Assembly: GCA_026874595.1 (NCBI GenBank) | Contig: CM049307.1 | Span: forward strand, 29,920,362-29,984,361 | Direction: 5' to 3' | Origin: Sipunculus nudus | Lineage: Eukaryota; Annelida; Sipuncula; Golfingiida; Sipunculidae | Length of the DNA: 64,000 bases | In this document: piece after piece, positions 1,930 through 56,974 of the stretch | Layout of the letters: each line of letters opens with the position of its first letter | Numbering within the stretch: the stretch's first letter is position 1 | Made by a program: the position numbers and the translations under genes | Notes under the pieces: model-generated | Seen by the model: only the letters and a program-made list of their open reading frames with translations | Database searches by the model: none | What the model was told of the DNA's origin: nothing

Positions 1930-3150
1930 TTTCAATACAGGAAATTAAAATTTAATACATTCACTGCTTCTGGTAGGTAGATATAAATAGCCAGTTTTTC
2001 AAAATTAAAATGTTTGCTCTCAATCACTTTGTAACATATTACATACATTTGTATCTAATAAAGCAGCTTCATATAACAACATTTATTACATTCATGGAAG
2101 AAAAGATTAAATGACTAATGAACTGTATGTGTAATAAACTGCATCATACAGTACTTTAGCAATGTGTTATTTATGAAATACTCTATGTTAGTATAACATG
2201 CCACTGAAATGTACATGGCTGACTAATGCAAAACCTAAATATAGGATTATATCCCATCTGGACTGAGGTTTGTGTAATCAATTTTCACTCACTTTCTGAG
2301 AAAACTTACACCAGTTCAAACAGCTGATAGCCTGATACTTCATGCTTTTTTAACATATTTTTTCTCTTTTCAATAAAATAAATACAGGATAAATAAATGA
2401 CCTCACAGTGGATAAGAGTGCCCATCATACAAGCCATAAAATAAATATAATTACCTTTAATATGCTTCTCCTGGATGCAGTCACATGACCATCATATAAC
2501 TTTAAATTACTGAGTAATATAATCGCGCTCATAACCTTATAGTAGTTGGTACAACATATCATTTTCTTAAATAGTGAATAACTTCTATTTTACTTAAGTA
2601 GATAATTAAAATAGACAGGTGGCGCCACCAGTTTCTGGAACATGACAACCCTATCCATGATCTTCCATCAACTTGATTTTGGGATCAATCCATGCAAGAT
2701 TTCTTGAGATATTTAAGAATTTGTGTGATTTTCCCCAAAATTGGACCTATTCAAGGTCAAGGACATTCTCCTAGTAAAGGTCATTACCTCATTTTAAATA
2801 GGCGTCGTCCTCTCACCCATATCTATACATATACCAAGTTTGGTAAAGATCCGTAAAATATTTTTTTAAGTTATCGCGCCAACAAGATTTATATGCGGCG
2901 GGACCGGTATGTTAACATAGTATCCCCCGACTTTGTCTGGGGATACAAATATAAAAGAAATCTGTCCATTAGTTTTTGACTTATAATGCTCACAATACTG
3001 TCAAGTGGCCATGCATTTTGGGGTATTAAAAGGCACAAAAACAAGTAAAGAATAATAGATGGTGCTCGACTTTGTCTGGGGATACAATTATATAGGAAAA
3101 TCTAATACTTACAATAGGTTTCTTACGATAAAATAAAATTCTCAATGAAC
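1930..3150. other. AT-rich intergenic DNA with repeat fragments
   Basis: No gene was recognised. A GGTGGCGCCACC palindrome lies at about 2618. A hairpin 'GTATCCCCC...GGGGATAC' lies near 2920-2946, and the second half of it recurs near 3066-3086. A family A head (ACAAGGGACC, near 3155) follows. Confidence 0.5.
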
Positions 3151-3524
3151 ATCAACAAGGGACCAATGGTTCACCGTGCTCAGCTGATGTTGACCTTGAA
3201 GGTAAAATCACAAATAATAACAAATTCAGAAAAAAAAGACTATGAGGAATGGGCCATGGTTGATATGATTGGTTTGAACTGATGAGTAAGGAATTGTTAC
3301 GAAATAATATTATGTGATCTGACAATGTGTTTTCTGATTGAATCGGGTGAGCAGTTCAAAACATAAGATCTATACTATGACAATGATCACTGAATGGCAC
3401 TTTGATTAATTGTTGATATGTACAGCAGTTGACACATACCTACAGTAAGATCCTCACTTTTTTATTATACAATGTTATTTTCAATTTTATAAATTTTACA
3501 CAGTTCCAAATACAACTAGTGTCC

Positions 3525-3770
3525 CCACTGCAAAGGTGCAAGGGCTCAATAGCGGGGGGGGGGGGGGGGGGGGGGGGGGGTTCAGGGGAGGGGTGGGAGG
3601 CTACAACCCCTCTTCATATACATATAGGATTTGAAATTTAATTCATCTTTGCTTACAAATAAAAAAGAATTGATTCATAATTATGAAATATCATTAATAA
3701 ACAGAGAGACCCAGATGGACAAACAAATTACTTTATTTCCCATTCTGCTAAGGCAAAAAAAATGAACAAA
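3525..3770 (+). repeat. Third copy of the 14125-14440 repeat, with a 27-nt poly-G run
   Basis: It has the same layout as 14125-14440: a poly-G run (3554-3580), a stretch reading 'TTACAACNCCT', then 'AATTTAATTCA', then 'CAGACNGANNGACAAA'. It is more diverged than the other pair. Confidence 0.6.
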
Positions 3771-3844
3771 TCTTTGCATTAGGATTGGAACTGCGGCATT
3801 TTTCCGAAGATTTATAAAATTCTTCAGAAAAAGCACCAAATCCT

Positions 3845-4100
3845 GAATCTTTGAATTTCTGCCATAGATTCCGCACTTTTCCACGGATTTCTGCCATAGA
3901 TTCCGCACTTTTCCGCGGATTTCTGCTGCAGTTTCCGCACTTTTCCGCTGATTTCTACTGCAGTTTCCGCACTTTTTCGCTGATTTCTGGTGCAGTTTCC
4001 ACGCTTTTCCGCGGATTTCTGCCACAGTTTCCGCACTTTTCCGACAATTTCTTCTGCACTTTTCCACAGATTTCTTCTACAGTTTCAACAGATGTTTTCC
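3845..4100. repeat. Minisatellite of about 33 bp
   Basis: About seven units of 'GATTTCTGCNNCAGTTTCCG / CACTTTTCCG' follow each other, degrading toward 4100. Because 33 is a multiple of three, frames stay open on both strands and encode an 11-residue periodic peptide. That is a by-product of the period and not evidence for a gene. The GC content is higher than in the flanks. Confidence 0.85.
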
Positions 4101-4104
4101 TGCA

Positions 4105-4940
4105 GCTTCCCCACTCTTTCGTGAAGGTTTCCTTTGGTAAATGAATTTCTGTGGCTATATTTTTCTGAAATTGTAAAAAATTATAATTTTCTGAATAAAC
4201 ATAACAATCAGCTATATTTTGAGAATGTTGCCTTCCTTTTCTTCTTAAATATTAGAGTATTGCCACAGCTGCATCTGCTTATATGTGTAATAAATGAAAA
4301 ACACTAAATGAAGTAAACTGATTATTTATTGAAAAAAATTATAATAAATATTTTTTAGTTTTGTTTTCTTCACAATGGCTTCAATCAGTCACTCAACTTG
4401 TGTCTCATATTTGCTTTGGTTGACCTATCAAATATCCTGGTGATTTTATCTGGAAAGAAAAAAAATTATTTAGTGATAATGCAAGAAACATCATATTGTG
4501 TAATTTTTTTAAAACCTCTTTCATAGTAAAATAAGTATTTTTTTCAGACATGGAATTTTTCTATAAGATCTTTAAATACCACAACTTTAAAATTGCAAGA
4601 AAGTCAATTTAGTGTAAACTGCAAATTAATCAGAAACACTGAAGATTTTCTACTGACAAACAGTGCATTATATTTTATATGTGTCTTTCTCCAAGATTTG
4701 CTGATAATTCCAACTCTTAAGGCAACATTAAATAACACTTTAAAAATTCCTGCACACATAAAACTTCAAAATATCATAAATAATGAATAAATATGGATGC
4801 ATGTGGTTTGTAAACAATTTAAAAAATATTCTTTTTAGGCCATAACAACAAATGCCCCAATTAAATACATAACAGTGGTGTCATATATTGCAAGAAAATG
4901 CATATCGCTGATCTAATTAATTAGAAAGATGTATCCTATT
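4105..4940. other. AT-rich stretch, nothing recognised
   Basis: No coding, RNA or repeat signal that I could support was seen here. Confidence 0.4.
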
Positions 4941-4945
4941 CAGAA

Positions 4946-7018
4946 ACAAGTGACCTATGGGTCATGATGCTCAGCCGACTAACATGTTGACAATATGTCC
5001 TTGCACAGGCAACTAATTAAGATAATGTCCAGCCTTTCCTGAGTAATCTGGCAATTTGTGTGTATTTTGCATTATTTCTGGGGTGCTAAAACATACCCCA
5101 AAACTCTGGGAATATAGGTCACAGTGACCGAATTTCAGTTTCTGGGGAGAACTTTTGAGGAACTCTCAGGATGTCAAGTAAGAAGTTTCTGGGCCAAATG
5201 GTTATGATTTGTGCCCTACTTTGGTATCAAATTTTCAATCATTCTGAGGGGTGCTTAGAAGCACCATAGCTCAAAAAATATGGGTAACGGAGACCTAATT
5301 TCACGTTTCTAAGGAGACTTCTCATGGACCTCCCTGGATTTAAAGTAAGAAGATTCAAGGTCCAATGGTTATGATTTGTGCCCTGCTTTGGCTCAAAAAC
5401 AGAGATAAAAATAATAAAAAAATTTAAAATAATAATGGTGGCGCCATCAGTCTGCAGAAACTAATGTAACATTCCATGACAAATATCCATAACAATATCC
5501 ATAACAAATTTTTCATTGTTCGGGGGGGGGGGGGGGGGGTATACTTCGGAGCCCCATAGCTTAATCAATATGGGTAACAGAGACCTAATTCCTGGTTTCC
5601 ATGGAGACTTTTCATGGACCTCTCTGGATGTATTGTTAGAAGATTCCAGGTCCAGCGGTTACGATTTGTGCCCTGTTAACAGATGACCACATCTTTAAAG
5701 GTCTCAAAAACAGAGAAAAAATAGTAAAAAATAAATAAAATACAGGTGGTGCCACCATTCTGCAGAAACTGATGAAACAGTCCATGATCAATATCCATGT
5801 AAAGAATTCTGGTGAACAATGCATTAGTTGTTCAGACACTTGAGCTTTTGTATAAAATTTTTCATTATTATGGGGGGGGGGGGGTACTTTGGAGCCCCAT
5901 AGCTTGTAGAATATGGGTAACAGAGACCTAATTCCAGGTTTCCAAGGAGACTTTTCAAGGACCTCTCAGGATGTAAAGTAAGAAGATTCCAGGTCCAGCT
6001 GATACGATTTGTGCCCTATTAACAGATGACCACATCTTTAAAAGGTCTTGAAAATCGAGAAAAAAATCACAAAAAATTAAAAGAATACAGGTGGCTCCAC
6101 CAGTCTGCAGAAACTGATGAAACACTCCATGATCAATATCCATGCAATAAATCATGGTGATCAATGCATTAGTTGTTCAGATACTTGAGCTTTTGTATCA
6201 AATTTTTCATTATTCTGGGGAGGGGGTACTTTGGAGCCCCATAGCTTGAAGAATATGGGTAACAGAGACCTAATTCCAGGTTTCCAGAGAGACTTTTCAT
6301 GGACCTCTCTGGATGTAAAGTTAGAAGATTCCAGGTCCAGCGCTTACAATTTGTGCCCTGTTAACAGATGACCACATCTTTAAAGGTCTCAAAAACAGAG
6401 AAAAAAAATAGTAAAAAATTTTAAAAAAATAAAGGTGGCACCATCAGTCTGCAGAAACTGATGAAACATTCCATGACAAACATCCACATAAAGAATCATG
6501 GTGATCAATGCATAAGTTGTTCAGATACTTGAGCTTTTGTGTCAAATTTTTCATTTTTCTCAGGGGGGGGGGGGGGTACTTTGGAGCCCCATAGCTTGAA
6601 AAATATGAGTAACACAGACCTAATTCCAGGTTTCAATGAAGACTTTTCATGGACCTCTCAGGTGGCGCCACCAGACTGCAGAAACTGATGAAACACTCCA
6701 TGATCAATATTTGTGCATAGAATCATGGTGATCAATGCATTAGTTGTTCAGATACTTGAGCTTTTGTATCAAATTTTTCATTATTCTGGGGGGTACTTGA
6801 CAGCCCCATAGCTTGAAGAATATGGGTAACAGAGACCTAATTCCAGGTTTCCAAGGAAATCTTCATAAACCTCTCTGGATGTAAAGTTAGAAGATTCCAG
6901 GTCCAGCGGTTAGGATTTGTGCCTGGTTAAGGGACGAACGGACAGACAAACAGACGGACAGACGACAGACAAAGAGTGATTGCTAAAGCTCAGATGACTT
7001 ACCATCAGCTGAGCTAAT
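4946..7018 (+). mobile_element. Family A nonautonomous element with tandem core
   Basis: The head 'ACAAGTGACCTATGGGTCA' followed by 'GCTCAGC' (4946) and the tail 'CTCAGATGACTTACCATCAG CTGAGC' (near 6990-7015) match the ends of the complete copies at 36646-38515 and 53535-56776. The core is a tandem array. 'CCCCATAGCTTGAAGAATATGGGTAAC' (about 27 nt) recurs near 5266, 5551, 5894, 6234, 6586 and 6803. Most units are 340-350 bp and carry a poly-G run and a GGTGGCGCCACC-like palindrome. A CAGACGGACAGACGAC minisatellite precedes the tail. No transposase is encoded, so it presumably depends on another element for movement. Confidence 0.7.
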
Positions 7019-7354
7019 AAAAAGCATATTTTGGTTCTAAATAGAAAGATGTTTACCATATTAAAGCTATTAAAGGATATTTCAGAATACCAGTTCAGTC
7101 TGTTGAATGACATCACCAAATTTTCAATAACAATACTTTTATGGTTAAAAAATGTATTTTATAATAAGTAAGGATGAGGCATGATGATTCTCAAAATATA
7201 CTTGAGGAAATACCCAGTGTTATAGGCCATCTAAGTCCATACACATATAAACAGTACCCATTAGTGCGCATCCTCAGACAAGTATATTAACAAGATAGTT
7301 GGCATATTCTGTTCACATATTTTGAATTCAAATAAAATAGGTGGATTTGCTTAC

Positions 7355-15639: not shown

Positions 15640-17258
15640 TTCTTATCATAAACCAAGAATTAAAAAAAAAAGTTTATTGTTATGTTTATGGCCTAAACAA
15701 ATACTAGTGGAGGGGGTTGGACAGTTAGATCCAGTTGAAGCCACCCAAGAGCTGGCTGGCTGCAGAGTGCCTCGCTTCAAGCAAGCATAATTGGCCTGAA
15801 AGGTCAATGTGGGGACATAAAAGAGGGGCTTCAGTACAGCCAAGGTGTGATATGGTCTAATAAAAACTTTCATAAAAGCTAGTTTTTGACCAATTCCTTT
15901 TATAACTTCAGAATTAAGAAGCTAAAATCCTTACTTGTGCAAGATTTAAAAATTAAATCAACAGTGCTCACAGGGAAAAAACATGCCATGGCCAAAGTTG
16001 GGCAAAATTTAAGGTACTGATTTTATATTTATGCTAATAACTTATAAATTTGAAAAATTCAGAACTAATTTTGGGAATACAATTGAATCTTGATTAAATA
16101 ATGTTATGTCCCTGGCAAAAAATGTCTACCTTCAGCAATTTTCATGTTAAGAGAGTAAATATATTTCTTGATTTTTACAAAGTGCATTATGTTTGGGCCT
16201 TGAACTTAAAACAATTACACAATACTGACATCATTTCTGGCATATGCATGGCAAATGTATAGAAAAATATGTATATCATATATGATCAAAGTCAGATCAG
16301 TGGTTTTGATATTAGGCAATCTTAAAGTGTAACAATGGGGTTTTAATGGAAAAATGAAGTTTTTTCTTAATATCTCAAAGGAATGCAGTCCTAGTGACCA
16401 AACGTTTAGTATGGTAGAGGATTTGGGGGACATCAAAATTTAAGGAACTTAGAGCTGAAGCTGGGGAGCTGAGCTCTAGTAAACTGCATAACACTAGCTT
16501 GGTGTAAACAATATATGACATGGTGCATTAAAACTTGAATAAAATCTACAGTTTTTGATCAACTGGTTTCAAATTTTTTGTTTTAACAGTTGAAATGGTA
16601 ACAAAAACATGCTTTGAAAATTAAATCCACAGCAGTTACAGGAAAAAAACATGCCATGGTCAAACTTGGGCAAAATTTAAGGTACCAATTTTATATTTTT
16701 GCCAATATTTAAAAAAATTTAACAGATTTTGACCTAATTTTTGGTATACAATTAAATTTTGATTATTTAAAGTAGTATTACTGAAAAAAATTCCTATCTT
16801 TAACACTTTTGGTCTTAAGTGACAAAATATCTTTCCTCATTTCTTTACAAAGTCCATTATGTTTGGGCCCATAACTTTTTTAAATTAAATAATACTGACT
16901 TAATTTCTGGCATGTACATAGGAACCATATAGAGGAATATTTATGGTAAAAATGAAGAAAACCAGATGAGTGGTTTTGATATTAGGCAGTCCTGAAGTGT
17001 GAAAATAGATTTCTAATAAAAAATTGAGGTTTTTCCTTAATATCTCAAAGGAACGAAGTCATATTGACCCAATTTTCGGCATGGTAGGAGATTTTGGGGA
17101 CATCTAACTGTATGCCCAATTTCAGATTCGTAGGTCCAATGGTGTCGAAACGTGCCAGTCTTACGGACGGACATCCAGACGGACGGACAGACAGACGGAC
17201 AGACGACGGACAATGGACCATGACTATAGCTCAGATGACTTAAAGTCAGCTGAGCTAA
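15640..17258 (+). mobile_element. Family A element, left part degraded
   Basis: Two diverged tandem units (about 15890-16440 and 16540-17110) share 'ACAGGGAAAAAACATGCCATGG', 'GGGCAAAATTTAAGGTAC', 'TTAATATCTCAAAGGAA' and related landmarks. They match 55440-55950 and 56070-56620. A GACGGACGGACAGACAGACGG tract (split at 17164-17212) and the tail 'AGCTCAGATGACTTAAAGTC AGCTGAGC' close it. No head sequence was found. Confidence 0.7.
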
Positions 17259-17264
17259 TGAATC

Positions 17265-18025
17265 AAAACTGTTCATTAAAAACTTTCTGATTATAGGTTA
17301 GCAAACCAACTAATGCTTCTAAAGGTATAATACCTCCTAGTAGAGGAAATATTTTATCAAGTTACAGACATACAACAGGCCATCTTGTCACAGTGACAGT
17401 CATGCAGGTAATTCTGTAGCATTTTGTTTCCATTTACAAAAACAATGTGTACACTCATTATGAAAAGCAGTCTTGTTCGTAACTGTCATGTTCCCAACAA
17501 ATTTGGGCCAGAAAACCAGTGCTGCCACCTTGTGAATATAATACTACTTATTTAAACTGAACATGTCTGAACTGGTACAAGTTTAAACTTTCTAAATATA
17601 AAAAGAGACACCATTTTCTATCAACATATTGTAATGGTTAGCATAATTTGGGTCAAAATGAATATCTTTCTTCTAAACACTTAAGAACACAAGATTACTT
17701 GTACTGGTTCAGTAATAAATTAAACTGTGAATATTTGAACATGATATGCAGGAGAAAGTGGAATGGTGCTAGGTGAACTATTTCAATGGCAATTTATTGT
17801 ACAGGAACATACTTCACTTGCCATCAACCTAAATAAATTGGTCATACTGACCCATTTATGAGAAAGCAATCCAATCAGGCCTGCCAAAAGTAAATGACTG
17901 CAAAAAGAGCAAGTGCACTGGAAAAAGAGCTGCCTTCTTTGAAATAAAGAGTGAAAAAGAGTAAAATAAGCGACTATGCCCAATTTTTTTTATTACAGAG
18001 TGAATAAAGATGTGCTTCATATACT
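17265..18025. other. Intergenic, nothing firm
   Basis: No gene was recognised. The minus-strand frame at 17783-17983 is hydrophobic and Cys-containing but has no supporting context. Confidence 0.3.
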
Positions 18026-23210: not shown

Positions 23211-23420
23211 TATCGATACTGGCAATTTTATCAGCCACGATTTTAGGTAAATGCAATTCTATTTATATTTTATCAACCACAATTAAAGGTAAATTCAATT
23301 CTACTTATATTTTATCACCCATGATTATTGTTATATTCAATGCTATTTATATTTTATCAGCCATGATTATAGGTACATGTATATTCAAATCTATTTATAT
23401 TTTTTCACCCACGATTATAA
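23211..23420. repeat. Tandem repeat, four units of about 55 bp
   Basis: 'TATATTTTATCANCCANGATTATAGGTA' (about 28 nt) recurs at about 23232, 23272, 23318 and 23362. It adjoins the left inverted arm of the element at 23443-26194. A single 'CTATTATAGGTAAATTCAAT' lies beyond the right arm near 26225, suggesting the array belongs to the element's ends. Confidence 0.65.
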
Positions 23421-23442
23421 TGCAGCGGATAGTTTTAAAAAA

Positions 23443-23567
23443 CTTTCAAATGGTGATACAAGTACCAAATTTGGCACAAAGACTTCTAAGATATAACTCT
23501 TTTGAAAAAGTACGCGGGCCACTTCCAATTCAAGATGGCTGCCAATTTATTTCAAGATAGCCGCTAT
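23443..23567 (+). repeat. Left inverted arm
   Basis: It pairs with 26073-26194; see the element entry. Confidence 0.8.
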
Positions 23568-23757
23568 GCGAACATATAGGATATCTACCACAGAATCTCA
23601 CCACTTTGATCAATTTGGATGATCTTGTTGTCTAAAAGAAGGTTTTTGACTACGAGAAAGCTAAATATTCAATTCTTTACTGCCTCCATTTTGATTTATT
23701 GCTTGCTTAACTTAGCTATATACATCAGCAAAATTCAATTCAATCAGTCCATAAAGG

Positions 23758-25800
23758 TTAGTCATGCTTGTCACCCAGATGAATTTGAACTTGACCTAAC
23801 TCACATTTGCAGCAACATATTTTTGTACAGGAAAGACAGAATCGGTAGCATTTGCACCTTCCATTGCATTCCAACTTACATACACACTTAGTCAGCTGTT
23901 GGCAACTATCTGCAATAGGTGGAAATGTTTTCCAGACACCCTCCATGTATTCCCACTCTTTGTCCATCCCCAGTCAGCAGGATTCTGTGTTTCTGGTTGG
24001 CGTAGTGTTGCTTGACTCCATATGCACCCTGCTTGATAGGCAGCACGCTTTGCATGCTGAAGTAGTGCTGCCCTCGTCGGAGGAATTGCGTCATAAGATC
24101 TCTGCAAACGAGCAAACATGTACAACCTGGCATTATCAGCTGTAACTGTACTGGACCTGTCATACATTGTCACCACAAATTTCTCCAGGACCTCAAGAAT
24201 ATCATCATCTACTGTTGGTTGGTACCGGCTATGCTTTGCAAACACACCAGAAGATGTCTCAACTTTGCAATGCTGATTTCTCTCCGTTGCTGCGGACGAC
24301 TTACACAATTTCGCAACCAGTAAAGGCATGAATGAATGTATCCCTTTGCTTTTTTGCGGTCCTATGGAGTGGTGCAGGTCATGTACAGGAAATATCTCAG
24401 GTTTAACCCTTGGCCAAAGGCTATCCACAACTGCAGCAGACCAGTTTCTTGAAGAAGAGGCAGAACACTGATTGCTATGAGGAGGACATCTGTGTCAGTG
24501 GCCTTCACTATCAAGATCTCGCTTCCCTACTCCATGGTGCAATCCCATCCAAGCTGAGCGTGTTGTTGCTGGCAGCATCTTGTTCTTTGGTCACAATCAC
24601 CAAGTTGGGTGTAGACATCATTGCAATCTTGTCAGCAAGGAACGGGAACAGCTCAGTTTTGTTGTCACTGTCTCGCAGGAAGTTCCGCCAGTTTGAGGGG
24701 ATTTTGCCCTTGCTTGTAAATCTACGTCTTACTCCACGTCCACGCTTTGACCTGGTTTCAACGTTGAGAATCGATGGCTGGTAGACATCAAACACTATGT
24801 CTGTTCTTTTGTTCTTGGTGAAGTATGCTTTTACTGTGGGGAGCACATCCAACATGGCGTAGTCTTCGAAAGTATTCGAGTTTCGTGGTGACAGGGTGTT
24901 CACCAGTGCAGAACCTTCAATGATGATTGTATCAGCCTCTGGTTCCACAACAGGTATTTTAACTTAACTCTCATGGATGGCTGCAAGCAGGGGACCTATG
25001 ACTGGTATTGAGGTTCCCGCCATCACTCAAGGCAGCAGGGAACTGATGATTCTCATGGCAAAAGAACAACTGTAGGTCACATTCTCTGCTCTGGCATGAG
25101 ATGAACAACTTGGAGAAGAGCAGGCAGTCCGTCTTCAGCACTTGCTGCTTTGAAGCATCAGCAGAGGCTGGTTCCTGTTTGAAGAAGTGCACCCTGTTCT
25201 GCTTGACTGGATCATAGAAGACGGTCACTTCCTCATTTTGCAGGCCCTCCGTGAACTGCTGGAAACAAGTGCTGCCCCTATTCAGGGGGCGGATCCAGGA
25301 TTGAGGAAAAAGGGGGGAGGTCCAACCCAGGAGGACTAATGAGAATCTTAAAAAAAGGTCATCACGTCTGGAAAAGGGGGGGTCCAGGCAGCAAAATTAA
25401 AACCCCTTAAAAAAGGTTGCTTCGGGTAAAAAAAAAAAAAGGGGGGGGGGGGGCCGACCCCCCCCCCCCTCCCCTGGATCCGCTTCTGCTATTCTAATGT
25501 GTGTTAAGCAGTTCTATTGCACTGGGATGAGCAAAGGATTACCCCGCTCTTTCAAAACTTGGGTAAGCTTCTTGACTTTCTAAAAGAAAATCCTTTGGGG
25601 TTGTGTAAGTGTAACATTGATGTTATGCTAACCTCAGCTTCAGGGCTTCTCTTCTTGGAGGTATTGTGCGCTGACCAGGTAACATTTACTGCCCCATCTG
25701 TTTCTTTAGTCACACTGACTTTCTCCAGCCACTCATACTCCAGTGCCAGTTGTGGTCCTAACAGAGTGGTGCCGGGATTTATAACATCATGCTTGCATCA
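23758..25800 (-). pseudogene. Decayed multicopy invertebrate gene with EADT/DTD/HAFTGC motifs and Cys-rich tail
   Basis: Read on the minus strand, pieces follow in order. 25800-25500: 'VNVTWSAHNTSKK', then a stretch ending at a stop. 25285-24971: 'VTVFYDPVKQNRVHF' and 'LFSKLFISCQ'. 24948-24511: 'VFDVYQPSILN', 'RGRGVRRR' and 'LPSNWRNFLRD'-like segments. About 24510-24370: 'ATDTDVLLIAI' and 'LWIAFGQG'. Near 24335: 'IHAFTGCE'. 24290-23970: 'FVVTMYDRSS', 'PPTRAALLQHAKRAAYQAG' and 'WGW'. 23967-23758: a Cys-rich CXC-like tail. At least four frameshifts plus stops, and a MITE at 25285-25493, break it. From memory this order matches a widespread, uncharacterised multicopy protein family of cnidarians, molluscs and insects. 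The acidic motifs look like those of FEN/PIN nucleases, which is inference. Confidence 0.6.
25285..25493. mobile_element. MITE with GCGGATCCAGG ends
   Basis: The left end 'GGGGGCGGATCCAGG' and the right end 'CCCCTGGATCCGCTTC' are inverted. The interior is A- and G-rich with G13 and C12 runs. It sits inside the pseudogene at 23758-25800, so it inserted later. A similar single end ('AGTGGATCCAGAGGGGGTCC') occurs at 46329. Confidence 0.7.
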
Positions 25801-26072
25801 CCATTTCCACTTTTTCCAGTATCCCACCTCACTAATATTTCTATAGTCTATATAAACAGGCATGCTAACTATATTGAGTAATATTAGTGGATTTTTAAAC
25901 TAAGGCCAAAATAAGGCAAAAGCAAGCTTCTGAGGGATTTCAAAGTGCCAGATTTCAAAGAGCCAGATTTGGAATCTACATGGTGAAAAATGTGTACTGT
26001 GATACCAGTATCATCCATATTTGGCAAGTCTGTGGATATTTTTTTACAAAACGTAATATTTATGTACACGAT

Positions 26073-26194
26073 ATAGCGGCCATCTTGAAAATCGGCAACC
26101 GTCTTGAATTTCAAGTGGCCCGTGTACTTTTTTAGAAGAGTAATGTCTAAGAAGTACCCGTGCCAAATGTGGTGCTTGTATCACCATTTGAAAG
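26073..26194 (-). repeat. Right inverted arm
   Basis: It pairs with 23443-23567; see the element entry. Confidence 0.8.
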
Positions 26195-26259
26195 ATTTCT
26201 CTGAAATATTATGTTATCTTCTGCACTATTATAGGTAAATTCAATTTACCTTTATTTAA

Positions 26260-32132: not shown

Positions 32133-35100
32133 TTTTTAGAGAACCTGTGAGCTTATGCGATTGTGTGTCGTCGTGCGTCGTGCGTCTTCTGTACGTTAAC
32201 CATAGCTATCTCAAAAACGGCAGGAGCTAGCATCACCAAATATTTTGCAAATAATCAGTCATCCAAAAAACTATATCGGATTTTGTTTATTTTTTTCCTA
32301 ACTGCATTTTCTTAGATTTTATAGGGAAAAAGCTACAAAAGCTTTAAAAATCTTCTTCTCTGAAACTGTCCAGCAAAATTGTCCAATATTTCACAGAAAT
32401 GATCCCTGGAACAATCTTTCACAAGTTTGTTCGAATGGTTCCAGTTCGGAGATTTTTGGCAGAGTTACAGGAGGTTGAACTTTGTTAACTGTGCAAAAAA
32501 GCATATTAAAATTTAAATCTCAGAAACGACTGGAGCTATCATCACCAAATTTTATGCCAATGTTGGTCACTTAGGTCATATCTGAAATTGAGGTATTGGT
32601 GGCGCCACCTGCATCGGCTTTTATTGTACGGGGTCATTAGTGCCTGTATCGCATTGAGGGCTACAAAAAACTTCTTCTCTGAAACCATATGGCCAAAATG
32701 TTTAATATCGCACAGAAATGATCCTAGGGTAGTGCTTTCTGAAGTTTGTCCAAATGGTCTCTTTTCAGTGACTTTTGGCTAAGTTATGGGAAGCTGAATA
32801 TAGTCATATGCCATAACAGCCCATTTTAGCTCAGTGGCTACAAAGATCTTCTTCTCAAAAACTACTGGGCCAAATTCTTAAATCTCACACATTAATTATC
32901 CTCAGATGTTGATAATTCAAGTTTGTTCAAATGGTTTTGGTTCAGTGCATTTTGGCTGAGTTACGGGAAGCTGAACTTAGCCAGTTTGCTGTATCTTCCT
33001 ATAAGAGTTATAAACTTGTGAAACGTTTTTCGACTGATGCCACTGAAGCCAGTTTGTTAAATATTTTACAAGAATAATCCCTTCAATAATTCTTATAATA
33101 ATTGTCATTTATGGTTCCACATGAATGATTTTTGGCTGAATTAATGAGATTGAATTGAGTCATTTTACCATATATGTTAGCTGTGTGATGCTGTTACATC
33201 TAGCCTGGCACCAGTTTATCAGCATCCATTACATCATGCCATTAGACATTTAGATTTCAGGTTATATTTGGTTAATATTGACAAAGTTTTTTTAAAAGCT
33301 TTTAAAAAATTTAGATTTATGATTTAAGTTATTCATCATACCAGGCAATGTTACAATCATGGCTATTTAGCTCTCTGTGACTATATAAACTGTACGTGGA
33401 TTATAAATTATTGGTATCCCTACTAAACTTAATTAAAAAAATTGCCATCAATGATATATATCTGTATTTTAATTTTGCATTTAGTATGCATCCGTAATAA
33501 TTTTACATATATTCATGATTTCTTTTTTTATAAAAAGTCAGCTGAAAAGCATTTTGTATTGGGAAAATAAATTTCAAAGTTATTTTAAATAGGGACCACT
33601 TTCGTGTACAGATGGCAGCACTTGGTTTACCATTGGCAGATTGCAAGTGCCTTGATGTTGGCCATTAGCCAAGATGATGTCAGCTCTATAAATAGTTTTG
33701 CCACAGTGCCAGGATTGGAAGAAGTGCAGCCAGGTATAGAGCAAGAGTTCACTCAGTGCACTAGCTGCATTCTATTTATAGCTTTGGCAGACTGCTCACT
33801 GCATCATATTTGGCACCAAAGTTCAGCCTGAATCTATTTATAGCTTTGGCAGACTGCCAACTGTGTCAGATTATGCAACAGGTCAAGAGCTCACTCAGTG
33901 CAGCCAGGTCAAAAGTCCACTCAGTCCAGCCAGGTGCAGGTCAAGAGTTCACTCAGTGCAGTAGCTTGAGGCAGCAATTTGTCACAGGTCACTCGGGGGC
34001 AACTGCCCTACTCACCTAAGCCTTGTCAGCCCAGTGCATCAAACTCTTGGGAAGTTCTATGTAATGGACTGATACCTGTCTATGCGTCTTTGATGGTATT
34101 CTCATTTACAAGACAGGTGGTGCCACCTACATTGACTTTTGCAGTGTATGCGCCTGCTTATTTCTACAGAGGAATTTGATACTTCAGCCTATAATTGGGT
34201 ATGTTTATACATATCGGGTAGCTTTATAGTGTACAAGACTGGTGGCGCCACCAACAATAATTTTAGCACAGTGTATATCCCTGCTTATTTCACAGGAGGG
34301 GTTTGACATATCAGTCTGAGATTGGGCATATGTATATATTTCTTCGTTGTATATAAGACTGGTGGTGCCAGCTACAATCATTGTATCTGCCAAAACAGAG
34401 TTTTCCGGATACTATGTTTTCAGTCAGACGCCGACCCTGCCGCCATTGCCGCAAAAGTTTCCAGAGAACTCCTCCATAACCACTGGGCAGAAATTTTTAA
34501 AATCCGGAATTATGATCGGTCAAATGTGAACTGCTGCGCCCTCATTTTAGGTTGACCTCTGACCTTTCCTGTCTGCCCAGCGCCCATTTGTGCGTCTGTT
34601 TCCACACATAAACCCACATATCTTCGGAACCGTTTGACTGATAAGGCTAAAGATTTTCACAAATGTAGCCCTTGGAAAGCTTTATAACATACACTAAAAA
34701 TTGTGGCCCCACCTGCAACCATTTTTGCACAGCGTCCATCTGTTCATCTGCCTTGGGATAAAATCACCCATATCTCTGCATTGGTTGGACTTATCCACCT
34801 GATCTTTTACAGGTTTATACATCCTTGACAGCTTTCTTGATTGTATGACAGGCGGTGCCGCCTACATTCACGTTTAAGCTGCAGACATCCAAGCTCATAT
34901 CCTGGGAACATTTGACCAGTTGGGCCAAAAGTTTGCATGTGTATAGATCTCACATAGCTCTTTATCATACGCAAAACTGGTGGTGCCACCTGCAATCATT
35001 TTTGCACAGCATCCGTCTGTTTGTTTGCCGTGGGATAAAATCAATCATATCTCGGCAGTGGTTTGACACATCTGCCTAAAATTTTGCAGGTTTATACATC

Positions 35101-35767
35101 TTGGATAGCTTTCTGGATTTTGTGGCAGGTGGCGCCACCTACATTTATGTATACGCTGCAGACATTGAGGCTTATATCTCAGGACTTGTTTGACATATCC
35201 CCCTGAAATTTTGCATGTGTATAGATCTCACATAGCAGTAAGCTCTTAATCATACACAATATTGGTAGCGCCACCTGCCACCATTTTTGAACAGCAACCG
35301 TCTGTTTTTCTTCCGTGGGCTAAAATCACTCCTATCTCAGTAGTGGTTTGACTTATCTGCCTGAAATTTTGCATGTTTATACATCTTGGACAGCTTTCTG
35401 GATTTTGTGGTAGGTGGCGCAACCTACATACACATTTCGGCTGCAGACATCCAGCCTATTATGCAACACACCTCACTCTATTTCCCCTTGCCACTAAATC
35501 CATGCCTCACTTTACCTTTCCTACTGATTTTGGCGGATACACATATTCACTTGTTGACTACCAATATTCTAGTTTCTGTGTTATGTGCACCCATGCCAGA
35601 ATTGCAGCAGTGATGTTAGTTTAATTGTTTCTTGTTCTAAGTGTTTAGTACTTGCATTGTTCATATACATGTTACACATGTTCTTGAAAAGTAATGGTCC
35701 AGCATTGAAGCATTATACCTGGTGTAATCTCATTGCACAGGTTCGCATTAGGCCTGTAGGCCTTGTT
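32133..35767 (+). mobile_element. Family B element with tandem core, full-length copy
   Basis: The left end 'TTTTTTAGAGAACCTGTGAG' is followed by a CGTCGTGCGTC tract and then by loose repeats of 'TCTCAGAAACGNCTGGAGCT' and 'TTTTGGCTGAGTTACGG'. The unit 'TTTATAGCTTTGGCAGACTG' recurs near 33776 and 33838. The tandem core is at 34110-35460. The right end 'GCACAGGTTCGCATTAGGCC' continues TGTAGGCCTTGTT and is shared exactly with 44010-44044. No protein is encoded. The architecture (unique ends around a tandem core) resembles nonautonomous elements known in bivalves, such as the pearl type. Confidence 0.65.
34110..35460 (+). repeat. Diverged GGTGGCGCCACC tandem core, copy 1
   Basis: GGTGGCGCCACC or one-mismatch versions occur near 34118, 34242, 34362, 34851, 34979, 35129, 35264 and 35413, mostly 125-150 bp apart. 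The order is more irregular than in copy 2 (41895-43780), so this copy is older or never homogenised. Confidence 0.8.
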
Positions 35768-36640: not shown

Positions 36641-36645
36641 TGATT

Positions 36646-38515
36646 TTTAGCTCAGCTGACTATAAGTCATCTGAGCTAGAGTCGTGGTTCTTGGTACGTC
36701 GTCCGTCCGTCCGTTAACAGGGCACGTTTCGAAACCGTTGGACCTACGAATCTGAAATTCGGCATACTGTTAGATGTCCCAAAAATCTCCTACCATACCG
36801 AAAATTGGGTCACTAATGGACTTCGTTCCTTCAAGATATTAGGGAAAAACCTCCGTTTTCCATAAAAAGCCATTATAACACTTCAAGATTCCCTAATATC
36901 AAAACCACTGATCTGTTTTTGATCATATTTAGTATTCATATTCTTCCATACATTTTCTGTTAACATACAAAAAATTAGGTCAGTATTATTTATTGTTTTG
37001 AAGTTATGGGCCCAAATATAATGCAATTTTTAAAAAATCAGGAAACATATTTACTCACATCACATGAGAATTGCTGAAGCTGGAGACTTTTTTCTGGGAT
37101 ATAACTTTATTAAATCAAGATTCAATTGTTAACCCAAAATTAGATCTGATCTTTGCAAATTTTTTAAGTTATAAGCATAAATAAAAAATCAGTACCTTAA
37201 ATTTTGTACAACTTTGGCTACGGCACGTTTTTCCCTGTAAGCACTGTTGATTTAATTTTCAGAGCATATATACAAAAGGATTTAATATTTTAAAATCTGA
37301 AATTTCAAAGGAATTGATTGAAAAGAGTAGCTTTTAATCAGGTTCTCATACAACATGTCAAGTGTTGTTTACATCGGGCCCACCTAGTAGTACAGCCTTC
37401 ACTTGTATTATGTACCCCTCTCCTGGCACCTTGCCTTGGCTCAGCTTGGCCACTACCAGCAGGCTTCCCCTCTGCCCTGCAACCCCCCCCCCCCTCACTG
37501 CCCCAGCTGGTGCATAAACTAGATCAATGTTATAATTTTCTGTATTTGATATATTCTTATTTTAGGCTATGCTACATTTCAGATTTTGTATTGTACCACC
37601 AGGGTTACAATGATTAAAGTGCACATTTAATTGTGTCCACAAAGTGGTTTATTGCTATATATGAAAGTGTGGATGTTCATCAGATAAGTAATTCTTTACT
37701 TCAGAAGAGTAAAACTTCACCAGGTGTGAAATTGACTATTAATTCCAGTAAATAATTATAGCTGAGATAGTAATTAGCACAATGATGTTGTTTGTCCCTC
37801 ATTCAACTAACAGTGTGCATACTTTATTTGAAAAGATGTTTTATTTAATCAAATTTACTGAATCTTTTATTTCGGTGAATAAAAGCATGTACTGAAAACT
37901 CCAATGTACAAAACTTTTTGATAGTGATTCAAGGAATAATCTTGAAGATGCTATGTTATGGATTTATTTTCTTTTAAATTCAGTTAAACTTGTGATTTAA
38001 AAATAATAAAATATATGTTTATGCATAATATGACCCGATATGAGCTACACTCTGGATAAGTTATGATTACAACTTAGAATTATGATTTTTCAGATTTTTA
38101 TTATTACAAATTTATAAAACTTGTAAATAAAAAAAAGGATCTGATAAACTATTAATGGAAAAAGAGGATATGCTAAAAATAGGCTTAAATATAAACTTAA
38201 GTGCATTATTCCCTTGAAAGTAAAATAAAGGTATTAGTCCGTTCTGTCCACTTGCCTGTCCATCTGTTAATTTTTCATATGCATCACAGTATCTCAAAAC
38301 TTTTACTGTTTTTCTTCATGACAGTCTTGTCAGAGTATTAGTTTTGCAATCATATATTTAGAACTTTATTATAACCAAGTGAGGGCCCCTTTCCTCTCAG
38401 CTTCTTATATATGCTTGTAAATATGAAAAACATTACAATAGAATATTTTGCATGTTTTGCATTTGCAAAAATTTCAAACTTCAGCTGTGCGCCTTGACCC
38501 ATGGGTCGCTTGTTT
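36646..38515 (-). mobile_element. Family A element, complete copy
   Basis: In reverse: the tail 'TTAGCTCAGCTGACTATAAG' lies at 36648, then a CGTCCGTCCGTCC tract. One unit (36720-37310) matches 55440-55950. A C12 run is at 37483. A block at 37620-38410 matches 54215-55120 reversed. The head 'GACCCATGGGTC' with 'CAGCTG' lies near 38482-38512. Pieces appear in the same order as in 53535-56776 but with the second tandem unit and the 53750-54060 block absent. Confidence 0.75.
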
Positions 38516-41680: not shown

Positions 41681-41894
41681 ACAATGTTTACATGCAGAAT
41701 TCCCAGATTATTGGAACTATATCTTTCAACTGTTTGAAAAAACTTGGTTTGCATTTTAAGCGAAACGGGTTTATCATCAGGTCATATGTGAACTGCTGCG
41801 CTATCATTTTTGGTTGACCTCTGACCTTTCCTTGCTGCCCAGTGTCCATTTGTGCGTCTGTTTCCACACAGAGCTCTTCATCATAGGCAAAACT

Positions 41895-43780
41895 GGTGGT
41901 GCCACCTGCAACCATTTATGCACAGCGTCCATCTGTTCATCTGCCTTAGGTTAAAATCACTCATATCTCAGCAGTGGTTTGACTTTTCCACTTGAAATTT
42001 TGCAGGTATTTTACATCCTGGACAGCTTTCTCGATTTTATGACAGGTGGCGCCACCTACATTCATGTTTACTTTGCAGACATCCAAGCTCATATCTCGGG
42101 AACCGTTTGACCGATTGGGCCAAAATTTTGCTTGTTTATAGATCGCACATAGCTCTTCATCATAGGCAAAACTGGTGGCGCCACCTGCAACCATTTATGC
42201 ACAGCGTCCATCTGTTCATCTGCCTTTGGATAATATCACTCATATCTCAGCAGTGGTTTGACTTATCCACCTGAAATTTTGCAGATATATACATCCTGGA
42301 CAGCTTTCTCGATTTATGACAAGTGGCGCCACCTACATTCACGTTTACTCTGCAGACACCCAAGCTCATATATCGGGAACCATTTGACTGATTGGGCAAA
42401 AAGTTTGCATGTGTATAATTCTCACATAGCTCTTCATCATAGGCAAAACTGGTGGTGCCACCTGCAACCATTTATGCCCAGCATCCATCTGTTCATCTGC
42501 CGTGGGATACAATCACTCATATCTCAGCAGTGGTTTGACTTATCCACCTAAAATTTTGCAGGTTTATACATCCTTGACAGCTTTCTCGATTTTATGACAG
42601 GTGGCGCCACCTACATTCACATTTACTCTGCAGACATCCAAGCTCATATCTAGGGAACCGTTTGACCAATTAGGCCAAAATTTTGCATGTGTATAGATCT
42701 CACATAGCTCTTCATCATAGGCAAAACTGGTGGTGCCACCTGCAACCATTTATGCACAGCGTCCATCTGTTCATCTGCCTTAGGTTAAAATCACTCATAT
42801 CTCAGCAGTGGTTTGACTTTTCCACTTGAAATTTTGCAGGTATTTTACATCCTGGACAGCTTTCTCGATTTTATGACAGGTGGCGCCACCTACATTCATG
42901 TTTACTCTGCAGACATCCAAGCTCATATCTCGGGAACCGTTTGACCGATTGGGCCAAAATTTTGCTTGTTTATAGATCGCACATAGCTCTTCATCATAGG
43001 CAAAACTGGTGGCGCCACCTGCAACCATTTGTGCACAGCGTCCATCTGTTCATCTGCCTTTGGATAATATCACTCATATCTCAGCAGTGGTTTGACTTAT
43101 CCACCTGAAATTTTGCAGATATATACATCCTGGACAGCTTTCTCTTTTTATGACAAGTGGCGCCACCTACATTCACGTTTGCTCTGCAGACACCCAAGCT
43201 CATATATCGGGAACCATTTGACTGATTAGGCAAAAAGTTTGCATGTGTATAATTCTCACATAGCTCTTCATCATTGGCAAAACTGGTGGTGCCACCTGCA
43301 ACCATTTATGCCCAGCATCCATCTGTTCATCTGCCGTGGGATACAATCACTCATATCTCAGCAGTGGTTTGACTTATCCACCTGAAATTTTGCAGATATA
43401 TACATCCTGGACAGCTTTCTCGATTTATGACAAGTGGCGCCACCTACATTCACGTTTACTCTGCAGACACCAAAGCTCATATATCGGGAACCATTTGACT
43501 GATTAGGCAAAAAGTTTGCATGTGTATAATTCTCACATAGCTCTTCATTATAGGCAAAACTGGTGGCGCCACCTGCAACCACTTATGCACAGCATCCATC
43601 TGTTGATCTGCCTTGGGATAATATCACTCATATCTCGGCAGTGGTTTAACTTATCCATCTGAAATTTTGCAGGTTTATACATCCTGGACAATTTTCTCGA
43701 TTTTATGACAGGTGGCACCACCTACATTCACGTTTAAGCTGCAGACATCCATGCTAATATGCAACACACCACGCTCTATT
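41895..43780 (+). repeat. Higher-order satellite-like array (278-bp dimers in 834-bp trimers)
   Basis: GGTGGNGCCACCTGCAACC marks unit starts at 41895, 42174, 42451, 42729, 43008, 43285 and 43562, with spacing 277-279. Each unit contains a second GGTGGCGCCACC about 150 bp in, and the two halves are themselves diverged copies of each other (both hold 'TCATATCTC' then 'GTTTGAC' then 'AAATTTTGCA'). Units 1 and 4, 2 and 5, 3 and 6 share private variants (for example CCTTAGGTTAAAATC in 1 and 4; CTTTGGATAATATC in 2 and 5; CGTGGGATACAATC in 3 and 6). The second half of unit 6 looks like unit 2/5, a sign of gene conversion. The 61-77 residue minus-strand ORFs end in every unit because 278 is not a multiple of three. 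Confidence 0.95.
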
Positions 43781-44045: not shown

Positions 44046-44990
44046 CAATATTGGAGTAGTTTTTCTGGTTTGCATTAAACTTTCTTGAGAAATAAAAAAA
44101 TTGGATGATCTATGCCATCATTGCCTTCCTGTAACAACACAGCACCAGCAGCAGCATCACTAGCATCTACAGCTAACTTAAAAGGTACAGAAAAGTCTGG
44201 AGCTGCTAAAACTGTTGAACTTTGCAGAATTGCTTTCAAATTCTGAAATGCATTTTCACACTGAACATTCCATACAAAGTTTTGTTTCTTCTTTAACAAA
44301 TTAGTCAAAGGTTCAGCTATAGCAGAAAAATTTGGACAAAACTTCCTGTAGTATCCAACCATACCAAGAAAACGCATTATTTGCTTTTTGTTTTCTGGTC
44401 TAGGAAATGCAAAAATAGCATTTATCTTAGCATCAAAAGGTTTTACCTGACCCTGCCCTACAATATGACCCAAAAATGTTACCTGTGCATGACAAAACTC
44501 AGATTTTACAAAGTTGAGGGTCAGACGTGCTTCACTGAGTCTTTCGAAGAGGTCGCGAAGAATTTGCAGATGTTTCTCTCAGGTGTCGCTGTACACGATG
44601 AGGTCATCAATATATGCGTCGCAGCCCTGAATGTCCTTGACAACCATATGGATGAAGCGCTGGAACGTGGCTGGCGAGTTCTTCATGCCAAACGGCATAA
44701 CTTTATACTGGTACAGTCCTTGCAGCGTCACAAATGCGGACACTTTCTTCGCTCGTTCTGTCAGCGGAACTTGCCAGAATCCTTTTAGCAAGTCAAACGT
44801 GGAGACATATCTGGAGCTACCGACTCTATCAATACAATCATCGATCCTCGGAATCGGAAACGTGTCAGTCTTGGTGATAGTTCAGTTTTCGATAATCTGT
44901 GCACATACGGTAAATTCCATCAGGTTTTGGCACAAGAATACATGGTGAACTCCAGTTACTGTTACTAGGTTCAATAAAATCATTGTCCAG
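44046..44990 (-). pseudogene. Gypsy-type LTR retrotransposon pol remnant (RT to RNase H)
   Basis: Minus-strand order: RT fingers ('KPDG', 'CTDYRKL') near 44930-44880, a frameshift near 44880, then 'FDLLKGFWQVPL', 'MPFGMKNSPATFQR', and the catalytic 'YIDD' near 44600. Then an in-frame stop at about 44579, the connection segment ('FLGHIVGQG'), the RNase H tether ('FLGMVGYYRKFCPNFS') and the RNase H start ('LAVDASDAAAGAVLLQ'). A last shift lies before 44075. It stops at 44045, where family B begins. It is a dead copy. The gag and LTR at 47690-49266 are on the same strand and in the expected order, so they may be the same element, split by later insertions. Confidence 0.9.
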
Positions 44991-46324: not shown

Positions 46325-46945
46325 ACCAGAAGTGGATCCAGAGGGGGTCCAGGGGCTGCTTTGTATTCGCCACCGTCTTTCTCTAATGCTTTTAGGCCGA
46401 TTCCTGCCCCCTAGACCCCCTTTTTGCGGACCTGAGGATATTTTATTTAGGTTTTAGTTGGGAGTCATAAGATTGATATGTTCTCCAATCCATTAAGGCT
46501 TACCAATAATAATTTGAAATAAGATTATTATTTTCCTAAAACTCTGTATTACAAAATGCCAATTTTGGTTTAAATACTAGTTCTGCCAAAATGATGACGG
46601 AAACCTATTTCGGTCCTGTTGGCAGAAACTTATTATTGCCATGACAGAAACCAGCAATGGCAGAAACTTGCAAACCCTGATATTATGTCATCTACATAGG
46701 GCTTTTCATTTATTTTTTTCTGCTAATCCGTTAATACAAAGTATTTTTGTGCTAGGTCTAGGCCTAATACATATATTTAAAGCTAGCTATTATGATAGAT
46801 TATATCGCCTTGTACCCCGCATGGTACTCCAAACTAATTTATGAAATATTATTTCTTAATCATATGCATAAGCTGAATAACTACTATATAAACTTGTGCT
46901 TGTCCGGGCACTGGGATAGAAAACGCTCAGTAACATAAATCATGT
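46325..46945. other. Intergenic with a MITE-like end
   Basis: At 46329-46430 'GTGGATCCAGAGGGGGTCC' and, inverted, 'GACCCCC' resemble the ends of the MITE at 25285. The rest is AT-rich with nothing recognised. Confidence 0.35.
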
Positions 46946-46949
46946 AATA

Positions 46950-47690
46950 TCCACCAAAGCAATAAAGGTCTCGCCTGGTGCCACTGTCTCTGTTAGTGGT
47001 TTAACAAGAGCCCATACGCCGGGTAGAGGTTTAGTTGTAGCTAAGGAAAACATCATGCATGCCTTACCTGCAGGATTGATGATGCATCCATCGCTCCAGG
47101 AAGAAGATTTTTCTTCAGGAGGAAAACACAGATTTATTGTTTCTATACAGAAATTATCTTGTGATCATGTAATCATTCCTAGTAAAACAATTCTTTGTGA
47201 TTTACAGGAAGCCAGCGTTGTTCCACCATCAGTACCTGCTTCAGACGCTGTAGATAATTTCCTCGATTCATTCAAGTTTAGCAGTGACATTTCACCAACT
47301 GAAATTGAACAGCTGCAAAGCTTGTTAATCAAATGGAAACATATTTTCTCTTTCAGCGATACTGATTTGGGGCGCACCAGTGTGGTAAAACATGAAATCA
47401 AATTAACCAATTATGAACCTTTCAGAGAAAGATACAGGCGCATTCCACCACAAATGTTTCATGAGGTAAAAGAACATCTTCGAGATATGCTGAAAGCCAA
47501 AGTCATCAAGGAGAGCAATAGTCCTTTTGCAAGTCCTGTGGTCCTTGTGCGTAAACCAGATAACTCTTTGAGATTTTGTGTTGATTAAAGGAAATTGAAC
47601 AACCGTACCATTAGAGATGCTCACACTCTGCCCGAATGGATGATACATTGGACTCTTTAATAGGTAGTCAGTATTTTATATTGATTAACC
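46950..47690 (+). pseudogene. Second Gypsy-type pol remnant, opposite strand
   Basis: It is open from about 46950 through 47588 ('GRGLVVAKENIMHALPAG', 'KHEIKLTNYEPFRERYRRIP', 'FASPVVLVRKPD') and covers the linker after protease and the RT fingers. The stop replacing Tyr in the DYRKLN motif is at 47586-47588. After it 'RKLNNRTIRDAHTLP' continues, with a further shift near 47635. At about 47690 it abuts the minus-strand gag. Its RT-finger sequence differs clearly from that of 44046-44990, although both cover this domain, so two families are present. Confidence 0.88.
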
Positions 47691-56500: not shown

Positions 56501-56776
56501 AGGCAGTCCTGAAGTGTAAAAATAGATTTCTAATAAAAAATTGAGGTTTTTCCTTAATATCTCGAGGGAACAAAGTCCTATTGACCCAACTTTCGGCATG
56601 GTAAGATATTTTGGGGACATCTAACTGTATCCCGAATTTCAGATTCGTAGGTCCAATGGTGTCGAAACGTGCCGGACAGACGGACGGACGGACGGACGGA
56701 CAGACAGACGGACGTACGGACGACGGACAATGGACCACGACTATAGCTCAGATGACTTATAGTCAGCTGAGCTAAA
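53535..56776 (+). mobile_element. Family A element, longest complete copy
   Basis: The head ACAAGGGACCCATGGGTCAC with GCTCAGCTGA is at 53535-53567. The tail 'AGCTCAGATGACTTATAGTC AGCTGAGC' ends at about 56774. In order: a block shared with 620-955 (53750-54060), a block shared with 36646-38515 (54215-55350, with a G20 run at 55214), two diverged tandem units (55440-55950 and 56070-56620), and a GACGGACGGACGG tract (56675-56725). It is about 3.2 kb with no coding capacity. Head and tail both contain GCTCAGCTGA or its complement, a very short inverted-end feature. Confidence 0.75.
54543..54659 (+). repeat. Near-perfect 49-bp direct repeat, period about 69
   Basis: 'TATAAGTTAAAATATTAGAA' through 'TTGCAATCATTATATAT' is present twice without visible change. 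This is a recent local duplication inside family A. Confidence 0.9.
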
Positions 56777-56974
56777 AAATGACCCATAACTGTTACACAG
56801 AGGAAAAAAATATAAAATAATACACGTATATAATTATACTATTGCAGCTGCCATTGCTTTAAATACATTTTACGTAGCCAATGAGTCTTTGAGAGGTTAA
56901 TTATCCCTTGTTCATAATACGATATGTTGATGAAACTAAATCCTTAAATTCATCTGTTTAGCTTAAAACTTAGT

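Follow-up and report, generated by a model that had tools for sequence, protein, structure and literature searches.

The window analysed here is a 64,000-nucleotide stretch of the Sipunculus nudus genome, and within it two inverted arms surround a single decayed gene. The locus raises the question of whether the arms are the ends of a DNA transposon and, if so, which part in transposition the encoded protein, suspected in the initial annotation to be a FEN/PIN-like nuclease, could have played.

The arms span 110 nt in the window and are 84% complementary without gaps. The gapped alignment of 23439-23567 with 26198-26073 scored 149, as against a maximum of 63.5 in 284 pairs of random window segments. 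The arms first described are therefore real, but they form only the inner part of longer terminal inverted repeats, and the bounds given to them (23443-26194) were short by 25 and 34 bp. The outer ends lie at 23418 and 26228, which gives an element of 2,811 bp. The left terminal inverted repeat occupies 23418-23567 on the plus strand (terminus TAATGCAGCGGAT; family form TAGTGCAGCAGAT) and the right one 26073-26228 on the minus strand (terminus ATCTTCTGCACTA); the inverted ends of the window-type element read TAGTnnAGCAGAT. The true terminus TAGTGCAGCAGAT was found by lining up the outer arm edges across genomic copies.

These copies came from a search of the S. nudus genome (1.43 Gb, 153 contigs) with the DNA of 23443-26194 as query. 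With 40 of the 2,907 first-look candidates scored, we observed at least 149 matching pieces, spread over 15 contigs, and at many genomic places a left-end piece and a right-end piece lay near each other. Twenty places were fetched, and six of them (L020, L021, L023, L024, L025 and L028), which had no second full end in the fetched stretch, were left out of the count of target site duplications (TSDs). With the terminus TAGTGCAGCAGAT allowed up to 4 differences, an exact 3-bp TSD was present in 14 of the 15 two-ended copies, window included, the miss being L012. Left flanks mispaired with the right flanks of other copies matched in only 8 of 210 cases. The duplicated triplets were TAA, CGG, ATA, TTT, TAT, CAT, TAA, CAT, AAA, GCT, AGT, CAT, ATG and TTA. 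By the flank comparison of two-ended copies, the unstranded TSD copies of the window element are the TTA triplets at 23415-23417 and 26229-26231.

The flanks of the window element also preserve its empty site. An unstranded 42-bp tandem array (23225-23417) is broken by the insertion and is back in register from ∼26229. When the two flanks were joined with one TTA, the array was restored in register, and 43 of 51 aligned columns agreed with the undisturbed units. This score was reached by 3 of 2,000 random window segments, and these three may fall inside the array itself. With terminal inverted repeats and 3-bp target duplications, the feature is a terminal-inverted-repeat DNA transposon, and the proposal that the arms are transposon ends is borne out by the duplications together with the restored array. 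The window copy alone, with its diverged arms and without an intact gene, could also suggest arms that arose by chance, or a copied host gene enclosed by a local inverted duplication. Chance was rejected on the arm score, and a host gene on the number and spread of the matching pieces over 15 contigs; as the TSDs and the restored array also speak against a local duplication, we consider such an origin practically negligible.

The 15 two-ended copies of the window family range from 0.9 to 7.8 kb. Five of them (L009, L010, L011, L012 and L022) are 7.3-7.8 kb long, and their gene region, on the same strand as the window remnant, runs from a Cys/His-rich start through a middle region and a linker to a FEN-like module and a Cys tail. 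The gene of all five is itself broken by stops or frameshifts. The Cys/His-rich part was observed only in the window family; in the two families described below it would fall outside the fetched stretch. At the short extreme, L019 (908 bp), L026 (1,240 bp), L027 (1,848 bp) and L018 (2,070 bp) have both ends and 3-bp duplications, and are internally deleted, non-autonomous offshoots of the window family.

A protein search with the nuclease part of L009 gave at least 108 matches genome-wide at identities of 28-100%, 97 of the 532 candidates having been scored. Long copies across families measure 6.2-7.8 kb and have one long gene. In family A, where the pairs compared were 96-99% identical, the frame of L042 runs open across the fetched stretch for 904 aa, and in family B that of L044 does so for 913 aa. 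Both families terminate in the same kind of terminus as the window family. Searching for the right end of family A, we found 10 places, of which 7 had both inverted ends and 3 a partial match without a partner. The end search for family B gave 8 places. Six had both ends; at C13:66943449 and C2:79320896 just one end was seen, and the C2 place adjoins a match from the search with the nuclease part of L009. Exact 3-bp TSDs were present at 7 of 7 family A places (6 of them independent; one with its first base changed) and at 5 of 6 family B places. The two family A copies at C13:15237459-15243615 and C13:15834932-15841087, ∼0.6 Mb apart, have common flanks and were therefore counted as one insertion; one of them probably stems from a regional duplication rather than a separate insertion. 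It had been foreseen that intact members without inverted ends at most loci would speak against the transposon idea. Instead, both ends accompanied the open-framed families at most of their places, this comparison covering families A and B among members that range down to ∼30% identity. The dN/dS values within family A (0.32-0.39) suit recent activity under constraint; the value was 0.56 for L067/L068, undefined for L044/L050 (dS 0) and not computable between families.

For the FEN-like module we prepared a 12-row alignment with rows of 30-97% identity. L047 (two stops) and the near-copies L038, L039 and L040 were left out of it, and the rows of L045, L049, L052 and L058 were truncated at stops. 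About six lineages are represented, so that the residue counts are not independent. Acidic residues were found at D27 in all 9 rows with letters there, at D70 in 11 of 11 and at E158, E159, D185, D187 and D244 in 12 of 12; D161 was present in 11 rows and replaced by E in the remaining one. In FEN1 and EXO1 the motifs follow one another as iD, VFD, EA(E/D), DxD and G(S/C)D, at similar spacing. The ordered acidic residues of the module agree with this active-site order of the FEN/XPG nucleases.

Profile comparison pointed in the same direction. hhalign against manually entered FEN1 plus EXO1 sequences aligned 190 columns with an E-value of 0.0072 and a probability of only 5%, in a register that sets four motif blocks opposite each other, VFD, EAE, DMD and the GSD block facing VWD, EEAD, DTD and the GCD block. 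A control with the middle-region alignment gave 28 columns (E 0.14). When the scoring was repeated in a script, none of 150 column shuffles came up to the score, but 2 of 150 ten-column block shuffles did. We regard this likeness of profiles as suggestive, not strong.

The AlphaFold2 model made from the 12-row alignment had a mean pLDDT of 76.1 and a pTM of 0.78. Its predicted order is strand 23-27, helix 43-59, strand 64-68, helix 110-125, strand 132-137, helix 160-173, strand 178-183, helix 186-198 and strand 203-208, followed by further helices. D27, D70 and D185/D187 are placed at or right after strand ends and E159/D161 at the start of helix 160-173, while D244 follows a helix, in a loop (244-248) modelled with low confidence, as is the Cys tail (381-421). 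Such placement of acidic residues is expected in a PIN/FEN fold, and the strand and helix order of the predicted model suits this fold. The suggested FEN/PIN link thus gains from the ordered acidic series, the weak profile match and the predicted model alike.

The module has no name in the collections that we searched. No Pfam family scored above the cut-off for the window pieces, the longer copies or the 12 alignment rows, and a genome search with XPG_I at E up to 10 gave 11 matches, 0 of which fell on the element places compared. No relative was confirmed in PHROGs or in the phage, viral-contig and genome-contig collections. Sequence matches in the PDB to designed TIM barrels (best 0.037) and to YacP (best 0.37) were not accepted as real, and a literature search with the family motif strings returned no match.

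The window copy itself retains a minus-strand gene remnant, as annotated, split over several frames. Relative to the L009 query, the end of the FEN-like module with the Cys-rich tail is at 23800-23934 (residues 368-412), the C-terminal part of the module at 23937-24392 (residues 210-366), a differently framed piece that carries the acidic motif DTDVLLIAI at 24329-24535 (residues 162-232) and the N-terminal part (IIIEGSALV ... IVFDVYQ) at 24523-24936 (residues 11-148), all on the minus strand. The linker between the middle part and the nuclease follows at 24992-25282 (minus; query J residues 38-134). It is interrupted at 25282-25488 by an unstranded insert absent from L009, which has short inverted ends GCGGATCCAGG as well as C/G runs and is probably a small non-autonomous element. 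Beyond the insert, a linker-coding match (25489-25605, minus) corresponds to positions 2073-2116 and 2160-2235 of the L009 element. The sole middle-region (probable DDE) piece found is at 25606-25782 (minus; query DDE residues 1-51), and it is bounded on both sides by deletion junctions relative to L009 (2235/3189 and 3360/7208), positions 2235-3189 and 3360-7208 of the L009 element being missing from the window copy.

Regarding the motif order first read from the sequence, DTDVLLIAI (frame piece 24362-24526), HAFTGCE (∼24310-24335) and the Cys tail (within 23758-23973) follow one another as stated, but the EADT that had been placed ahead of them is not the conserved acidic motif of the family. 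It belongs to EPEADTIIIEG at ∼24940, directly ahead of the module's first strand. In relatives the conserved motif is HEEADTR; the window copy has lost it, EEAD segment included, and shows PWSREARS in that frame. Two further acidic sites are changed, D27 to E (IIIEG) and D244 to E (HAFTGCE), and frameshifts, stops, large deletions and the one insert add to the damage. We concluded from the sequence that the window copy is dead and cannot encode an active transposon protein.

The initial annotation had also considered that the mobilising enzyme might be a nuclease unlike DDE transposases. This part was not upheld: the nuclease module is the C-terminal part of a long protein, the middle of which is DUF6589-like. 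The middle region gave no Pfam match above the cut-off, and the likeness came from a genome search with DUF6589 (PF20231). Among its 64 matches, 3 were, by eye, at FEN-family places, two of these being below the cut-off; 61 were away from FEN-family places, and the matches of the closest relatives were below the cut-off. DUF6589 positions 276-410 weakly matched the middle region of the family A copies at C13:15.24 Mb and C11:72.06 Mb with E-values of 0.18 and 0.66. The match above the cut-off (C3:52481001-52481558, E 5.4e-4) shares its strand with a FEN-family match (C3:52479444-52480391) and lies ∼610 bp upstream of it. We read these places as one putative gene type with a DUF6589-like core, and the DUF6589-like middle is probably a DDE transposase core. 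A literature search on the term DUF6589 found no paper. Elsewhere on C3, at 42848257-42849636, a 554-aa open frame matches DUF6589 with an E-value of 3e-37; no FEN-family match was there among the matches listed, and this may be a related element without the nuclease.

As the FEN-like module sits at the C-terminal end of the gene, it might be passenger cargo of an unrelated transposon, with no part in transposition. We consider this improbable. In two divergent families the module and the middle part are read in a single open frame (904 and 913 aa), the acidic residues of the module persist across rows that share between 30% and 97% identity, and in family A (7 places) and family B (6 places) the gene comes with both inverted ends. 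Most likely, the protein is a transposase, in which the DDE core would make the joined ends and the FEN-like module would cut the second strand or trim branched intermediates. In more detail, the Cys/His-rich part of the protein would bind the element ends, and the DUF6589-like core would cut and join the 3' ends at a stagger of 3 nt. The FEN-like module would release the element by cutting the opposite (5') strand or an intermediate with a branch or flap. In a narrower and more doubtful form of this proposal, which we offer tentatively, two different metal-dependent nucleases would share the steps of transposition within one polypeptide, the DUF6589-like DDE core joining the 3' ends and the FEN-like module, as a structure-specific nuclease, making the second cut in the 5' strand. 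If true, this would be a two-nuclease cut-and-paste route, unlike those of other eukaryotic transposons, which use a hairpin or a single active site.

Other repeats are also present in the window. A reverse transcriptase/RNase H remnant lies at 44078-44578 on the minus strand (Pfam RT_RNaseH_2, E 1.8e-16), and a plus-strand frame at 46920-47585 resembles the start of a retrotransposon reverse transcriptase, with no Pfam match at E 0.01. Related tandem arrays at 41867-43760 and 34688-35453 have units of ∼277 and 285 bp that are ∼80% alike. Repeats of up to 1.4 kb with 74-88% identity, partly inverted, at 36644-38448, 54186-56794 and 15873-17273 probably represent another transposable element.

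In this genome, then, a multicopy protein family without a Pfam name travels on DNA transposons, and where other invertebrates have 'uncharacterised' genes with such motifs, these too probably encode transposon proteins. The closely similar open-framed copies of families A and B, with their defined ends, make the role of a flap-type nuclease in transposition directly testable.

The remaining question is to which superfamily the element belongs. Academ elements have a nuclease of the XPG type. CACTA/EnSpm and PIF/Harbinger have ∼3-bp target duplications; CACTA/EnSpm termini begin CACTA or CACTG, and the target triplet of PIF/Harbinger is TWA. Both candidates were rejected, the first as the termini here begin TAGT and the second as the triplets also include CGG, CAT, GCT and others beyond TWA. 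The termini differ between families (TAGTGCAG, TAGTCCAG and TAGTCAAG). In the available text of PMC10045372, AcademX has duplications of 3 or 4 bp and AcademH of 9 or 10, the size being tied to the nuclease and helicase encoded. The element has terminal inverted repeats and a TSD within the AcademX range. We estimate with a probability of roughly 0.8 that the window element is the dead remnant, shortened by internal deletions, of a terminal-inverted-repeat DNA transposon for which an Academ-like placement (AcademX lineage) fits best. The name follows TSD size, inverted ends and a probable nuclease, and it was set by descriptions, not by a reference Academ sequence. As the assignment is by description and the other superfamilies also have ∼3-bp duplications, one of these or an unnamed superfamily could be the true one; the TAGT termini, their differences between families, the triplets beyond TWA and the nuclease with 3 or 4 bp duplications reported for AcademX in the part of PMC10045372 seen make this unlikely. 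The accessible parts of PMC5753468, PMC9783078, PMC10799480 and PMC9004415 gave no description of the Academ nuclease, nor was anything on the nuclease found in the portions seen of the literature on Academ with XPG.

The combination of a probable DDE transposase with a nuclease that resembles flap nucleases appears to be already named as the Academ type. On the portions of the sources available, the likeness to Academ/AcademX comprises inverted ends, 3-bp duplications and, probably, an element-encoded nuclease (PMC10045372) as well as long elements (PMC10294476). The excerpt of PMC10294476 describes an Academ amplification specific to bivalves, with 100 curated elements; the copies here, at 6.2-7.8 kb, differ from the bivalve consensus mean of 5,565 bp given there. 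With FEN1, EXO1 and XPG the module shares the acidic order iDG, VFD, EAD, DxD and GCD and a Gly-rich stretch after it, but it has extra C-terminal helices and a Cys tail, lies inside a transposon protein and has no Pfam XPG match in the parts scanned and at the element places compared. An accessory nuclease beside a DDE transposase is also described, in the part of PMC9587614 seen, for the Kolobok lineages KolobokE, KolobokD and KolobokP, which resemble our element in this arrangement but differ in having other nuclease folds and in belonging to another superfamily.
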